From Alphaproteobacteria bacterium (GTDB lineage Bacteria > Pseudomonadota > Alphaproteobacteria > Acetobacterales > Acetobacteraceae): a DNA stretch of 64,000 bases. Under the pieces are notes generated by a model that saw only the letters and a program-made list of their open reading frames with translations, made no database searches and was not told the DNA's origin. Shown piece after piece: positions 10,211 to 19,404 of this stretch. Each line of letters begins with the position of its first letter. Position 1 is the first letter of the stretch. The translations under genes and the position numbers were made by a program. The stretch is taken from contig VGDL01000001.1 in assembly GCA_016869735.1 (NCBI GenBank), positions 1-64,000 on the forward strand. Reading direction: 5' to 3'.

Positions 10211-11209
10211 CTATTCCTTCAGCAGCGCCCAGAAACTCGGCGTCAGCGCTGCGGGCGCATCGCCATCTTTGAATACCGCGAAGCAATCATTGAAGAATGC
10301 GCTGAAGGCATCAGCATGGGTGTGCCCGCCACGCATCGTCTGCACCATGCCCCAAGGGTCGGTGACACCATCGGTGCGTTCGCGTAGCGATCCGGCATTA
10401 TAGGCAATGGCCACCAAGGGCGGGTCGAAATGCGTCGGCAATTTGCGGCGCATCGATTGGGCACGAATCATCGCCGCGCCCGCGCGGATGGATGTGGCGG
10501 GATCAAGCAATCGCACCCGATCAATGCTGGCATCCGCCAATACGTCGCGGGCGGTTGAAATCAGCGTTTGCATCATTCCAGGTGAGACGCGGTGCGGGGT
10601 TGCCGCATCGCTCACAAATCCAGGTTCTTCGCGGATGGCGTCGGCGCGTCCGCCGGATTCCGTGCAGGCGGTCGCGATCAGCAATTCCACCGGCACGCCA
10701 TAAGCCGCAGCGCAGCTTTCAAAGGCTGCGCGAAAATCGCGCCAACAGCGCGTGACCGTTTCTGGTCTGCCGCTGCTGCGCGGCGGTGCAACAAAGCCTT
10801 CCAGGCGCAGCCCTTCGGGGCTGAGCCGCCAGCGCCGCCCCCCTTGCCCCACTGGCGGCGCGCTGCCCGCCATCAGGCGTTGCACATAAGGGCGCAACAT
10901 GGCGCGCCAATTTGGCGCTGCCGCGAGCCCTGATTCGGGCGTTGCCGCGCCGGTCAGCGGATGCGGCGCGGCTTCGGGGAAAAGCGCGCTCCAGCTTTGC
11001 CGGCCCACAATGCCATCCGCGGCAAAGCCTGCATGGCGTGCTTGCATGCGCCGCTGGAAATTGAGCACCGCGCGATGCGTTGCTGGGCCAAAAATACCAT
11101 CGGCGCTACCCGCCAGCATGCCGGCGCGGATCAGCGCCTGCTGCACGGCGCGCACATCATCACCGCGTTGCAACGGCAGGCGGAGGCTGAGTTCGCGGGC
11201 GAGGGCCAT
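10211..11209 (-). CDS. Peptidoglycan-binding plus SLT/lysozyme-like domain protein without obvious signal peptide
   Basis: LQRGDDVRAVQQAL...DGIFGPATHRAVLNFQ (PG_binding_1); LLIATACTESGGRADAI...GMMQT (transglycosylase-like). Confidence 0.8.
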   Translation of the reverse strand: MALARELSLRLPLQRGDDVRAVQQALIRAGMLAGSADGIFGPATHRAVLNFQRRMQARHAGFAADGIVGRQSWSALFPEAAPHPLTGAATPESGLAAAPNWRAMLRPYVQRLMAGSAPPVGQGGRRWRLSPEGLRLEGFVAPPRSSGRPETVTRCWRDFRAAFESCAAAYGVPVELLIATACTESGGRADAIREEPGFVSDAATPHRVSPGMMQTLISTARDVLADASIDRVRLLDPATSIRAGAAMIRAQSMRRKLPTHFDPPLVAIAYNAGSLRERTDGVTDPWGMVQTMRGGHTHADAFSAFFNDCFAVFKDGDAPAALTPSFWALLKE

Positions 11210-11226
11210 GACAAATCCTCCTGGTT

Positions 11227-11883
11227 TCAAAGCTGACAATCGGTGATGCGCGCCGCACGTAAGCCTGCATCATCGGCAAGCCGCTTCAGCGCCAAATCAT
11301 TCGGTTTCAGCAATAAGCCGCGATGCGCTTCCCCCAATGCAAGCTGCGCGGCGGTGCAGCGTGCGGCCTCAGGCCCGGCGGAAGGTCTGGCTGCGGAAAG
11401 CGCGGCACGGCCCCGCAGCAAGGCGCCTTCGGCATCGGCCAAGGGGGCGGCTTCCGTGATCAAATCCCGCGCCGCCGGGGCGGCCATGGCAGGGGGTAGG
11501 TTTTCAATGGCGCAGAGCCGCGCTTGGGTACGGATCTTTCGCGCGGGTAGCAGCAATTCTCCCGCCGCCTGTTCAGCCGCCTGGGCAGCGCTGGCGGCGC
11601 AGGCAAGCAGGCCCGCTGCGCGCGCATTGGCACCAGGGCAGGCGGCATTGGGGGGGCGATCGGCAAAGGCCACTGCAAGGCAGGCTTCGGCGCGCATCAA
11701 ATGCAGGCGCTGGCAGGGCTCACCCCGCCCGGGCTCGCAATCAGCCACCACGGGTTCATCGGCGATGGCAGCAAGCGCCCCGACCAAGCGCTGCTTCTGC
11801 CAGCGTGCCAACTGCGCCACGGGCGCATCAAGGGCGCTGCAGGCCGCAAGACCAAGAAGCGCAGTAATGAACATGCGGATCAT
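11227..11883 (-). CDS. Hypothetical lipoprotein
   Basis: N-terminus MIRMFITALLGLAACS with lipobox LAAC; overlaps upstream gene by 4 bp. Confidence 0.55.
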   Translation of the reverse strand: MIRMFITALLGLAACSALDAPVAQLARWQKQRLVGALAAIADEPVVADCEPGRGEPCQRLHLMRAEACLAVAFADRPPNAACPGANARAAGLLACAASAAQAAEQAAGELLLPARKIRTQARLCAIENLPPAMAAPAARDLITEAAPLADAEGALLRGRAALSAARPSAGPEAARCTAAQLALGEAHRGLLLKPNDLALKRLADDAGLRAARITDCQL

Positions 11884-13433
11884 GGCATCACCTCCGCGAT
11901 CAGCCTTACCGGATCAAGCTTTCTATCCCGCAAATGGCCGGTCAGCATGACCAGGGCTTCAAAGGCGGCGCGGGCTTCGGGTTGGCCTGCGCCTGCCTTG
12001 CCGGCTTCATCCATCAGGCGGTTCACCTGTTCCACATTTGGCAGCGCGCCAGGCGCAGGTGCCAGCGGCGCCAGGGCAGCGGCGATTTTCTCGGGCGTCG
12101 CATCGCGCGCCGAAAGATCAGCAAGCAAGGCCGTGCGGAATTCCTGCAAGCCCGCTTCAATTTCTGCTTCACCACCCGGAAAGCGCGCCGCGTCAGCGCC
12201 ATATTTGGCCCAAAGCCGTGCCCCCGCATCATCCTGGCTGATTTTGCTGATCAGATCCGCAAAAAAACCAGGCCGTGCCTTCACATCCCCGAAGGCGCGG
12301 GCGAAGATCGGGCAGCTCTCCATGCGAAGCTCTGCTGAGCTTGGCGTGATCAAGCCCGCATCAAAAAACTGCGGCGCGAAGGGGACAGCCAAAACGCGTG
12401 CGCGCCAGCGCTGATATTCCGCCGCGCCGAAATGCCAGCCAAGCCCAATCACCGTCGCCACTGCCCCAATGGGCCCTAGCGCCGTGCCAGCCGGCAGCAA
12501 GGATGCCGCGCCGCGCAGCAGGGGCGCCAAGGGCTGCGCGCTGATCAAGCCCGCCAGGGCATCGGTTGCAGTCTTCAATGCGCCCTCAGCGCCGGGGCCG
12601 CTTTGCTGGCCTTCCAATGCTGCGGCGGCGTCGCGCGCCTTGCCAAGTGCCTGGCTTGCCCCTTCCGGGATCATGCCTTTGGGCAGCAGCGGGCCAAATT
12701 CATCCAACACCAAGCCGGCCACTTCGATATGCCGCGCCAGGCTGCCCTTTGTGGCTTCAATCCGCCCCGGCAGGGCAGCATCGCGCGCGGCGCCTTCGGC
12801 CTTTTCGAGTAGGGCCGCAGCCTCGGCGGCAAGGGCGCCATTGGCGCGTTCACGTTCGGCCAATTGTTCACTGGCCCGGCGGGCGTTCTGCGCATCCGCC
12901 CCGGTGCTGCGCGTGCCGAAGTAAAAGCCGAAAACGCCGGTGACGATACCATTTACATAGCCGGCAATCGCATCTGTCAGGCCCAGCGTCTTGGAAAACA
13001 GCAAAAGCGGCAGGCCGATCACGCCTACAATAAGCGCGAGCAAGGCGCGCACCGTGCCCTCCGGCAGGGCAAGCGGCAGGTCGCGCAGGCCGGCCAGCCG
13101 TTCCGGGCCTATGGCTGGGTTGGCGACCAGCGCGAAGCTGCGCGCTGCCAGCCACCATAGGAAGGCAGCAAAGCCGATGCCCACAAGGAAAATCATCATA
13201 CCAATAAGGGCTGGCAGGCCAGTGGCACCGGGCGCGGCGAAGGCGGCGAAAAGCGCCTCTGGCCCCGGCAGGCCAAGCGCCACGCCCGCCCCCAGCACGG
13301 CGGCAATGGCTGCGCCGGTCAATAAAATACGCAGGGGAAGGGGCAGAATGGACAGTAATTCAAAGGCGATGGGGCGTCCCGCTGGGGCGCTTACCGTGAT
13401 CTCTCCTGGTGTGGCGGGGGCGGATGGGGGCAT
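11880..13433 (-). CDS. Multi-TM protein with large C-terminal domain, unknown function
   Basis: Several hydrophobic segments in the N-terminal 160 aa, including LPEGTVRALLALIVGVIGLPLLLF. Confidence 0.6.
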   Translation of the reverse strand: MPPSAPATPGEITVSAPAGRPIAFELLSILPLPLRILLTGAAIAAVLGAGVALGLPGPEALFAAFAAPGATGLPALIGMMIFLVGIGFAAFLWWLAARSFALVANPAIGPERLAGLRDLPLALPEGTVRALLALIVGVIGLPLLLFSKTLGLTDAIAGYVNGIVTGVFGFYFGTRSTGADAQNARRASEQLAERERANGALAAEAAALLEKAEGAARDAALPGRIEATKGSLARHIEVAGLVLDEFGPLLPKGMIPEGASQALGKARDAAAALEGQQSGPGAEGALKTATDALAGLISAQPLAPLLRGAASLLPAGTALGPIGAVATVIGLGWHFGAAEYQRWRARVLAVPFAPQFFDAGLITPSSAELRMESCPIFARAFGDVKARPGFFADLISKISQDDAGARLWAKYGADAARFPGGEAEIEAGLQEFRTALLADLSARDATPEKIAAALAPLAPAPGALPNVEQVNRLMDEAGKAGAGQPEARAAFEALVMLTGHLRDRKLDPVRLIAEVMP

Positions 13434-13505: not shown

Positions 13506-14513
13506 CTAATCCCGTGCCACCGCCTCCGCAATCCGTGCCGCATTCAGCGCTGCGCCAAGCCGAACATCATCGCCAACCGCCCAAAGTGAAAGCCCTTGCG
13601 GCAGCGTCGCATCGCGCCTGATGCGGGAGACATAGACCATATCTTCCCCCACAATCTCGGCGGGGCTGGCATAGCCGCCATCATCGCGCCGATCGAGCAA
13701 GCTGATGCCCGGCGCCTTACGCAAAGCTTCCCTTGCATCGCGTTCATTGATCGGTTGGTCGAAGGCGATGTTCAGCGCCATGCCAAGGCCAAGCATCACG
13801 GGTACGCGCACGCAGCTTGCGGCCACCTGGATATCGGGGCCGAGGAGCTTGCGGGTTTCAACGCCCATCGCCCATTCTTCCCGCGTCGCGCCATCGGCCA
13901 TGAAGCGATCAATATGCGGAATGACATTGAAGGCGATCTGCTTGGTGAAGAACTGCGCTTCCGGATTGTCATTCACAAAAATGCCGCGCGTCTGGGACCA
14001 AAGCTCATCAATGCCTTCCTTCCCAACACCTGATGCCGGTTGATAGGTTGCGGCCACCACGCGGCGGACGCCGGCGGCTTCATGCAAGGGCTTCAGCACC
14101 GTGGCCAGGATCAGGCTGGCGGGCAGGGGGCAGGCAATGATCCGCCTTTTTTGAGCCTTGGCCAGCGCCTGGTCGTTAAGGCCAGCCACCACCAGCGGCA
14201 CATCGGGTTCCAGGTGAAAATGCCCGGAAAGGTCTATCGCCATCGCGCCGGCAGCCGCCGCGCGCGGGACTTCAACGGCGGCAAGTTTGGCGTCGCAGGC
14301 GAAAATCGCGAGGTTCGTGCCAGCAAAATCAAACCGCGCCACATCGCGCGTCTTGAGTACGGCTTTTTCGCCCCAGGAAATCTCTGCCCCCGCCGCGCGG
14401 CCAGGGGCCAGCGCCACGACCTCGGCCCCCGCAAGGCTGGTTTCGGCAAGGCAGCGCAGGATTTCGCGCCCGATCAGGGAAGGGGCGCCAATGACGGCGA
14501 TACGTTGGGCCAT
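13506..14513 (-). CDS. Aspartate-semialdehyde dehydrogenase homolog lacking canonical catalytic residues
   Basis: [33 protein letters not shown] and SCVRVPV are ASADH signatures; NPNC replaced by CPLP, GHSE by GLGM. Confidence 0.85.
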
Positions 14514-14628: not shown

Positions 14629-15891
14629 ATGAAAGCTGAACTTCCCCAACCAGCCCTTGCTGTCACGCTTTTGCTTGCCCAACCCAGCTTGGCGGTGGCG
14701 GGTCAGGACGCCGCTGCTGGTCAAGCGCCGGGTTTTTTCGCGGGGCTTGCGGTGGGGGTTCTGATTTGCCTGTTGCTGGGCAGTTGGGCGCTTTGGCGGC
14801 AGCGCAGCATGTTGGCGGGCTTTGCCGGCAAGCTGTCTCGTTTGGCGGCGGGTGACGCCGTTCCCCCCTTCGCCGCAACCGAAGCCGATGGCCCCTGGCG
14901 CCAGATGCTGACGGCGGCCGAGGCTTTGCGGCAGCGCCCCGCGCCTGCCCCCCTGGCCCCAGCGCCGATGATTGTCCCGCCACCGGACCAATCCTTGGCC
15001 AGCCTGGCCGCCACCATTGAAGCGGAAACCGCCGCCGCGCTTGAGGATCTGGACCGCCGCGTTGCCATGCTGCGCCGAAACTGCGCTGCGATGACTGAGG
15101 CAGCGGAGGGTGGCGCGCGTGCCGCTGAGGCTTCGGCCAGCGCGGCCTCTTCAGGGCGGATCAGCGCGCAGGAAGCGTCTCGTGGCGCGGATGAGCTGGC
15201 TGGCGCGGCGGGGGAGATCGCCCAGCAAATGTCGCGGGCTGGGGAATCGACGCGCGGCGTGATGCAACGCACGGATGAAGCGCGGCGGGTTTTCGTGGAA
15301 CTCACGAGCAGCGTGGATGAAATCGGTCAGGTTTCACGCCTGATCGCGGAAATTGCCGGGCAGACCAATCTATTGGCGCTGAACGCCACCATTGAAGCGG
15401 CGCGCGCCGGTGCCGCTGGCAAGGGCTTTACCGTGGTAGCGGGGGAGGTGAAGAACCTTGCCAAGCGCACAGCGCAAAGCACGGAAGAAATCGCCGGGCG
15501 CATCGCCGCCATGCAGGCTGCCGCCAGCCGCGCCTTGGCCGCCATGGATGGTATTGGGGGCGCGGTGTCCGAACTTGATGCGGTGGCAACCTCGGTCGCT
15601 GCGGCGGTGGAAGAACAATCCGCAACCACGGCTGAAATTTCCCGCGCCATTACCGGCGCGGCGGAGAATCCCGCTGATGTCGCCACCAGGATGGAGGCGC
15701 TGACGCAGGATTCCGGCAATACCGGTGAAGCTGCCTGGACCCTGCAATCGGGCGCGGATGAATTGGCCGATGCCATCGCCGCCTTCCGGCAGAATTTGGG
15801 TGAGGCATTGCGCGGGCGCCTTTCCGGTACTGATCGGCGACGCGAAGCGCGGCTTTTCGCTTGGTGTGCCGGCCAGGCTGAATGCGCGTGA
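14629..15891 (+). CDS. Methyl-accepting chemotaxis protein, apparently truncated by frameshift before PilZ domain
   Basis: [38 protein letters not shown] signalling hairpin; N-terminal TM. Confidence 0.85.
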
Positions 15892-17403: not shown

Positions 17404-18605
17404 TCAGCCGGCGCCGACCAATCCCAAGGCATGCTCCGCAATCATGGCTTCTTCATCCGTCGGGCGGATCAGGACGCGCACGGGATCGCCAGCGCGGCCG
17501 ATCTCTGGCCGATTGGCAGCATTGGCTTCGAGGTTAAGGTTGATGCCAAGAAAGCCAAGCCCGGCGCAGATGCGCGCGCGAACCCCATGGGCATTTTCGC
17601 CAATGCCGGCGGTGAAGATCAGTGCGTCAATGCCGCCGATGGAAGCAGCGAGAGCGCCGATTTCGCGGCGCACGCGAAAGGCGAAGTGATCCAAAGCGGC
17701 TTCGGCGGCTTCGGTCCCGGCGGCTTCAATGGCGCGCACATCCTGCGATACGCCGGACATGCCTTTCAGCCCGCTTTCATGATACAGCAGATGCGAGATG
17801 TCCTGCGATGTCATCTGCAAACTATCCAACATATGCAGCACCACGCCGGGGTCCAATTGGCCGCTGCGCGTGCCCATGGGAACGCCATCCAAGGCGGTGA
17901 AGCCCATGGTGGTGGCGCGGCTTTGCCCGCCTTCAATGGCGCAAAGCGAAGCGCCATTGCCAAGATGTGCCACCACCAGCCGCGTCTGGCCCAGCGCCGC
18001 ATCCTCGGCGGCCAAGCGGCGCGCGATGTATTCGTAAGACAAGCCATGAAAGCCGTAACGGAGGATGCCCTGATCAAAAAACCGTGGCGGCAGCGCGAAG
18101 GTCGCGGCGGCGTGGCTTTGCGTACGGTGAAACGCCGTATCGAAGCAGGCAATTTGGGGAACGCCCGGAAATGCCGCGCAGCCGCTTCAATGCCCGCCAG
18201 ATTATGCGGCTGATGCAAGGGTGCCAGAGGCACCAGCGCGCGGAGCTTTGCCATGATGGCATCGGTGATCGTGACCGGTGCGATCAAATCCCGCCCGCCA
18301 TGCACCACGCGATGGCCAATGGCGCGAATGGCCGCGCCATCCAACAGCGGTGTCAGCGCTTGCAGGATCACCCCCAAAGCACCTTCATGACCCTTGGGTG
18401 CTTCGGCTGTCGTGAAATGGCGTTCCGTCAGCACCACGCCCGCAGCATCGCGCAGGATGAAGCGCGGTGCCGCGCCAATGCCTTCCAACTGGCCATCATA
18501 GCGCTGCGTTAAACTGCTTTGCTGAACAGCAAAGACCGCGAATTTCAGTGATGAAGAGCCCGCATTCAGCACCAAAAGCGCGGCCTGCTTGCCTTCAGGC
18601 GACAT
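17404..18605 (-). pseudogene. ackA: Acetate kinase, frameshifted into two ORFs
   Basis: N-terminal LVLNAGSSSLKFAVF...GHRVVHGG in one frame; GNGASLCAIEGGQSRATTMGFTALDGVPMGTRSG in another; junction near 18165. Confidence 0.85.
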
Positions 18606-19404
18606 TGTGCAACCCCGCATCAACATAAATCGTATCACCCGTCATACCGGATGACGCGCCGCTGACCAGAAACGCCACCACGCGGCCGACTTCCGCAATA
18701 TCCACGAGCCGCTGCGCCGGTGCGCGTGCCTTGGCATCCGCAATCAATTCATCAAATTGTGCAATCCCGCTGGCCGCACGGGTGCGGAGCGGCCCGGGCG
18801 AGACCGCGAAAACCCTGATGCCGCTTGGCCCAAGTTCAGCCGCCGTATACCGGACCGAGGCTTCAAGTGCGGCCTTCACCGGCCCCATGATGTTGTAGTT
18901 CGCAACAACCTTATCGGCGCCGTAATAGCTCATGGTCACCAAAACGCCGCCGGGCGCCATGATCGGTTCCGCAAGCTTCGCCCTGCGCAAGAAGGACCAG
19001 CAGGAAACGCGCATCGCCTGGGCGAAGCCATCCGCCGAACAATCAATCACGCGGCCATGCAAATCGGCGCGCGGGGCGAAGGCGATGGAATGTATCACGA
19101 AATCAAGCTTGCCCCAGTCACGCGCCAGGCGTTCAAACACCGCTTCCATTTCGCCGGGCGCTTCGACATCCAGCTTCATAGAGATTTCAGCGCCAAGCTG
19201 TTCGGCCAAGGGGCGCACATGGGGTTCGGCCTTGTCATTCAGCCAGGTCACGGCAAGGTCTGCACCAAAGGCCCGCAGCTTGGCGGCGGCACCAAAGGCA
19301 ATGGAATCGGCATTGGCAATGCCCACCACCAAGCCGCGCTTGCCCTTCAGCATATCGCCGATGCGCTGATCAGGGTTCCAGATGGTGGGTAACGGGTCGG
19401 TCAT
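18595..19404 (-). CDS. fabI: Enoyl-ACP reductase FabI
   Basis: GIANADSIAFGAA, SIAFAPRADLHGRVIDCS, SYYGADKVVANYNIMGPVKAALEA. Confidence 0.92.
   Translation of the reverse strand: MTDPLPTIWNPDQRIGDMLKGKRGLVVGIANADSIAFGAAAKLRAFGADLAVTWLNDKAEPHVRPLAEQLGAEISMKLDVEAPGEMEAVFERLARDWGKLDFVIHSIAFAPRADLHGRVIDCSADGFAQAMRVSCWSFLRRAKLAEPIMAPGGVLVTMSYYGADKVVANYNIMGPVKAALEASVRYTAAELGPSGIRVFAVSPGPLRTRAASGIAQFDELIADAKARAPAQRLVDIAEVGRVVAFLVSGASSGMTGDTIYVDAGLHNVA

Follow-up and report, generated by a model that had tools for sequence, protein, structure and literature searches.

The window, by which we mean the whole stretch of 64,000 nucleotides analyzed here, carries on its reverse strand a gene of the aspartate-semialdehyde dehydrogenase (Asd, or ASADH) family, flanked by a divergent gene for a methyl-accepting chemotaxis protein (MCP) and followed by three genes referred to here as T8, L9 and SLT10 (Table 1). 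Read from the DNA, the gene starts with ATG and forms a full-length open reading frame. Family membership, as proposed in the original prediction, was borne out by both Pfam domains, which match the window protein over its full length and above cut-off (PF02774, 147 bits; PF01118, 58 bits). Elsewhere in the window, the acetate kinase gene (17404-18638, reverse strand) is split over two frames (ORFs 17404-18042 and 17811-18638); in a relative (L184) it is one ORF of 407 amino acids, and the split represents a frameshift or an assembly error. Below, numbers with G denote genomes and numbers with g denote genera; the window genome is G000, and its clade falls in g1.

Table 1. Features in the window at and around the Asd-family gene.
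Feature	Position	Strand	Basis
Native asd orthologue turned putative pseudoenzyme, 335 aa	13506..14513	-	ORF, Pfam, synteny, tree
Degenerate nucleophile loop, residues 128-133 CPLPAS (canonical NPNCST)	14115..14132	-	codons, alignment
Pro131 codon, in place of catalytic Cys	14121-14123	-	codons read from DNA
Cys128 codon	14130-14132	-	codons read from DNA
Leu243 codon at expected acid/base His	13785..13787	-	codons, alignment
His100 codon at expected phosphate-binding Arg (H. influenzae Arg103)	14214..14216	-	codons; role PMC3276109
Ala215 codon at expected phosphate-orienting Lys (H. influenzae Lys246)	13869..13871	-	codons; role PMC3276109
Arg236 codon kept (substrate-carboxylate binder in active Asd)	13806..13808	-	codons, alignment
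MCP gene, divergent	14629..15891	+	neighbourhood comparison; context only
Membrane protein T8, without Pfam match, first of three downstream genes	11880..13433	-	context only
Lipoprotein-like L9, small, without Pfam match	11227-11883	-	context only
SLT10, PG_binding_1+SLT gene	10211-11209	-	context only

The original prediction held that this protein lacks the catalytic cysteine and histidine of the family. Both sites, re-read from the DNA, agreed with that reading: codon 131 is CCC (Pro) and codon 243 is CTT (Leu). The rest of the nucleophile loop includes TGC (Cys) at 128, CTG (Leu) at 130, GCC (Ala) at 132 and AGC (Ser) at 133. The list of losses was correct for these two residues but incomplete, as it overlooked the replacement of the phosphate-binding Arg by His100 (CAC) and of the phosphate-orienting Lys by Ala215 (GCG). 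Asn130 and the canonical residues at positions 95, 97 and 72 are missing as well, and Gln158, Glu212 and Arg236 are retained. In H. influenzae ASADH, to which we set residue equivalences by motif rather than by solved structure, less than 0.01% of activity is left in C136S, 1% in H277N, 0.07-0.4% in R103L/K and 3.3% in K246R (PMC3276109). Since the window protein lacks all four of these mutated residues, it is, judged by its sequence, very unlikely to be an Asd, and we infer that it would have no Asd activity. A catalytic motif that is gone from a protein that is conserved defines the pseudoenzyme class, and both were found here. An AlphaFold model built from 16 near-identical sequences had a mean pLDDT of 37 and was set aside.

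The same substitutions are present in all 16 full-length copies of the window subclade (90-95% protein identity), with ACPRPAS as the single loop variant. Because these copies come from separate assemblies, chance is excluded, as is the sequencing error at both sites that had been named as a possible refutation. A second possible refutation, that the protein is a working Asd using the shifted cysteine of ACPLP (Cys128) as its nucleophile, appears extremely improbable. Every copy of the window clade has Cys128, and some copies from g96 and g45 also have a cysteine there; in S. pneumoniae Asd, whose loop reads IIACPNCST, the equivalent cysteine stands beside the true nucleophile three residues further on, so that by precedent Cys128 is not a shifted nucleophile. 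Moreover, the position is taken by Asn, Ser or Thr in other degenerate lineages, the window protein has also lost the His, Arg and Lys, and its genome encodes a canonical Asd.

The original prediction had suggested searching for this second Asd. In the window genome (131 contigs, 99% complete) there are exactly two PF02774 matches, the window gene and a gene that we term type X (contig C18, 48633-49622, forward strand). Type X is of the same family and size as the window protein, with 37-38% identity between the two types (38% within the window genome), and its active site is complete: the loop reads ANPNCTT, and the His is present, as are the Arg, Lys, Glu, Gln and Arg ligands. Against the asd_B model TIGR01296 (cut-off 324 bits) type X scores 378 and the window protein 300. 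The closest solved structure to type X is 2yv3, of the Thermus type, and in several genera the gene divergent from type X reads as a class I lysyl-tRNA synthetase. With Cys, His and the phosphate ligands gone and a canonical Asd encoded in the same genome, the prediction that the window gene encodes a pseudoenzyme rather than an Asd is well supported.

We compared gene neighbourhoods at 41 loci, with genes called by a simple in-house codon-score caller, and found the asd gene native to the family in three settings: between an upstream MCP gene and downstream sdhCDAB (g4, g96 and several g1 genomes), with an MCP gene and T8-L9-SLT10 (the window clade, g16 and G330 of g45), or with pqq genes (g25, g29, and some g1 and g45 genomes). 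Within genera, intact and degenerate copies have the same neighbourhoods; MCP-asd-sdhCDAB, for instance, is common to intact and degenerate genes in g96 and is also found at the degenerate g4 loci. These shared settings identify the degenerate gene as the native asd, passed down within the family, and type X as a newcomer or an alternative copy. A tree of 60 rows, built by a careful search after the active-site columns had been taken out, grouped degenerate genes from g1, g16, g29 and g96 with intact genes of their own genus (support 96/90, 100/98, 100/99 and 100/93, respectively). The g4 and g45 copies lay on long branches, and their placement is thus uncertain. Compared with intact native Asd from its genus, the window protein is 61% identical. 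Gene order and tree together identify the window gene as the native asd, inherited vertically in the family.

Two other histories were considered and rejected. A first tree united most degenerate copies, as if they formed one ancient pseudoenzyme lineage, but long branches were flagged; once the other degenerate rows were omitted, the window clade joined its own genus, and the tree without active-site columns ruled out a single lineage for g16, g29 and g96 too, with synteny in agreement. Horizontal transfer of a cassette of the degenerate asd with T8-L9-SLT10 was rejected because the intact asd of g16 (G268) and of g45 (G330) has the same downstream genes.

No partner gene was conserved beside all degenerate copies across the 41 neighbourhoods. 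As a general functional partner, T8-L9-SLT10 is unsupported, being missing from the degenerate loci of g4, g29 and g96, and so is the MCP, which is missing from g29 and from the degenerate g45 loci. Without a universally conserved neighbour, genomic context does not point to a second role for the protein. As separate observations, the T8-L9-SLT10 cassette (10211-13433, reverse strand) lies next to asd in three genera, and T8 is present in 19 genomes of the window genus and in none of its 16 large-genome members. The MCP gene directly adjoins native asd in several genera, in the same direction or divergently, whether asd is intact or degenerate.

To survey the family, 398 genomes, many of them MAGs, were searched for type X and, by an intact-motif pattern, for native asd; the native gene was sought further in carriers of X not yet covered and in all motif-negative genomes, and the motifs were then read. 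Type X was carried by 70 of the 398 genomes, in ten genera. The native Asd had lost its nucleophilic Cys in 37 of the 68 scorable carriers, these 37 falling into six of the ten carrier genera: g1 (6/13 in this sample), g4 (10/10), g16 (5/6), g29 (2/3), g45 (4/10) and g96 (10/11, some by pattern only). In carriers from g25, g36, g37 and g73, all scorable native copies were intact; in G337 and G347, two carriers with fragmentary assemblies, the native gene was not found. Among the 328 non-carriers, 308 had the intact native motif. In the other 20 the native gene was absent from the assembly, partial or of a different Asd type, except in G039, which has the Cys (AVPNCST), and in G124, the one of about 309 non-carriers with Cys lost. 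In G124 the lysyl-tRNA synthetase gene that neighbours X begins at a contig end, and the X locus probably falls within an assembly gap. At the genus level, Cys loss occurred in 6 of 10 carrier genera versus 1 of 92 others (Fisher p = 1e-6); the corresponding value for genomes, which are not independent, was p = 3e-31. Loss of the nucleophile from native Asd is tied to the presence of type X.

A third Asd type, roughly 50% identical to X and with the motif NPNCVA or NPNCAA, was seen in about 16 family genomes (L131, L133, L134, L152-L162). Native asd was intact in these genomes wherever it was found, and G093 has the third type only, with no native gene.

The losses recurred. Both intact and degenerate native genes occur among X carriers of g1, g16, g29, g45 and g96, with graded intermediates between them. 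Loops in g96 run from NPNCST (G405) through NPNGST (G394) to NPSPGS (G416), NPLDAI (G262) and a CPGS type, those in g16 include NPNCST (G268), NPGSST (G298) and TPSAxV, and those in g1 include NPNCST, NPDGST (G008), NPDGAA (G002) and the CPLPAS of the window clade. In g4 all carriers are degenerate, and the native gene read in a non-carrier congener (G136) is intact. Parsimony on the 60-row tree gave 8 changes, of which at least 6 are forced by well-supported branches, and 11 if only losses are allowed. There were thus at least six independent losses and possibly 11, those in g4 and g45 being less certain.

Despite these losses, the protein was retained. The native ORF was uninterrupted in 68 of the 70 X carriers, with the G382 copy split over two contigs. 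Pairwise Nei-Gojobori estimates (own script) gave a median dN/dS of 0.105 in the window clade (maximum 0.26; 120 pairs, dS ~0.56), and 0.175 in g4, 0.22 in g96, 0.26 in g16, 0.10 in g29 and 0.36 in g45, compared with 0.16-0.19 for intact natives and 0.045-0.13 for X. The degenerate native Asd is under purifying selection, although purifying selection alone cannot tell a non-catalytic from a new catalytic role. We then compared 174 positions that are at least 95% invariant among 74 intact natives with the 37 degenerate copies, and 90 of the 174, including most of the C-terminal domain, were kept in at least 85% of the degenerate copies. Losses centred on the active site. The nucleophilic Cys131, present in 74/74 intact natives, was found in 0/37 degenerate copies, and the share of degenerate copies that kept the canonical residue was 5% for N95 and N130, 8% for S72 and S97, 11% for E245, 16% for K215, 24% for H243 and 43% for R100. 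Kept in all degenerate copies were Arg236 (37/37), Arg39, which presumably contacts the NADP ribose phosphate, Gly15, Gly42, Asp169-Glu170-Leu171, Lys191, Asn196, Pro199, Gly280-Tyr281, Arg297/299 and Asp315/Arg318. In one genome (G024, contig C16, 170101-170328; L185), a partial second C-terminal copy of about 76-92 amino acids, 88% identical, follows the full degenerate gene.

This pattern of retention makes it quite improbable that the native gene is simply redundant and decaying, without function, under relaxed selection. Decay could account for the raised dN/dS of some degenerate groups (0.36 in g45) and for the stepwise erosion of the active site, in which G394 (NPNGST) and G008 (NPDGST) are among the single-residue intermediates. 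However, not one of 68 carriers had a frameshift or stop, and bacteria normally delete decayed genes fast; the low dN/dS of the window clade at its level of synonymous divergence and the 90 family-invariant positions that are kept likewise speak against it.

On balance we lean towards a scenario in which catalysis passed to type X and the native Asd was kept for an older, non-catalytic role. Type X, whose gene adjoins that for class I lysyl-tRNA synthetase, would perform the aspartate-semialdehyde dehydrogenation, and its presence would relax catalytic selection on the native protein. The nucleophile, acid/base and phosphate-binding residues could then be lost, while the folded protein would stay under purifying selection for its older role. 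Both this second role and its nature are our inference; the most likely candidate would be a regulatory or scaffolding oligomer that binds a ligand, namely a substrate-like carboxylate and/or NADP(H). The broader proposition is that native Asd has two functions, the non-catalytic one so important that the protein was never lost, and that a second Asd took on the catalysis, which the native protein gave up at least six and up to about 11 times. It seems to us about evenly poised between true and false.

Alternatively, the Asd fold might have gained a new enzymatic activity that needs no thiol nucleophile, for example that of a simple NADP-dependent reductase. The strong purifying selection in the window clade would suit such an enzyme, as would the retention, in the nucleotide-binding half, of Arg39 and Gly9/Gly15, together with that of Arg236 and, mostly, of Gln158. 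If one new activity were shared, though, the copies should have converged, and the loops are unlike in each lineage (ACPLPAS, ATPSAAV, ASPVAGA, NPNSAV, NPDGAA, NPNGST), with no new invariant residue of catalytic type in place of the Cys or His, which counts against this possibility and makes it unlikely. That the losses recur in separate genera, with no replacement residues in common, is easier to reconcile with an older non-catalytic role than with a new activity.

We also consider it doubtful that degenerate native Asd acts as a regulatory subunit that tunes active X within mixed dimers or tetramers. Such heteromers of pseudoenzyme and enzyme are a known mode with precedent (PMC10211241), degeneration is found where X is present, and the C-terminal dimerisation domain is the best-kept part of the protein. 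X and native Asd are merely 38% identical, however, and both copies are intact in g25, g36, g37 and g73, indicating that carriers can do without mixed regulation; with an older role, X would also be unnecessary as a partner for retention.

Asd is an essential enzyme of amino-acid biosynthesis and an antimicrobial target, and is usually viewed as single-purpose. The repeated loss of its active site in a protein that is strictly kept points to a further role. If the two-function reading is true, nature has repeated in these bacteria what amounts to a separation-of-function experiment on an essential biosynthetic enzyme. In the collection of papers searched, a second role or moonlighting of Asd drew passing mentions only, and nothing was found on Asd as a pseudoenzyme, on Usg-1 together with Asd or on Asd in Roseomonas.

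Among known systems, the closest is the asd_B type (TIGR01296 / NF011456; PF01118 + PF02774), with which the window protein shares the full-length, two-domain fold and the residues Gln158, Glu212 and Arg236, its gene being orthologous to native asd by synteny. Unlike the window protein, the asd_B type has the nucleophilic Cys, the acid/base His and both phosphate ligands. The window protein nonetheless scores 338 bits against NF011456 (cut-off 223), although it is under the TIGR01296 cut-off, and annotation pipelines would probably name it Asd; metabolic models would then count two enzymes, of which one is probably dead.

The original prediction had also likened the protein to Usg-1, a comparison that stands as an analogy and not as family membership. 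E. coli Usg (b2319), an example of the gammaproteobacterial protein, is likewise Asd-derived and without the catalytic Cys and phosphate Arg, but it is 34% identical to the window protein and has the opposite residue pattern, in which the His is kept, the substrate Arg is replaced by Gln and the active-site Gln by Ile. Against NF004224 and NF005957, which we take to be Usg-like models, the window protein falls below cut-off (207 vs 284 and 196 vs 273 bits, respectively), and the genomic contexts also differ (pdxB-usg-truA versus MCP / asd / T8-L9-SLT10). By sequence, the window protein is not Usg-1, and Usg is an analogous Asd-derived protein of a different family. A further parallel is found in the fungal Ssd1-type pseudonucleases, in which Dis3L2 was inactivated repeatedly with its second function preserved (PMC8097288). 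These proteins differ in being eukaryotic, of an unrelated fold and of known second role (RNA binding), but they display the same pattern, in which active sites are lost independently while a non-catalytic role persists.
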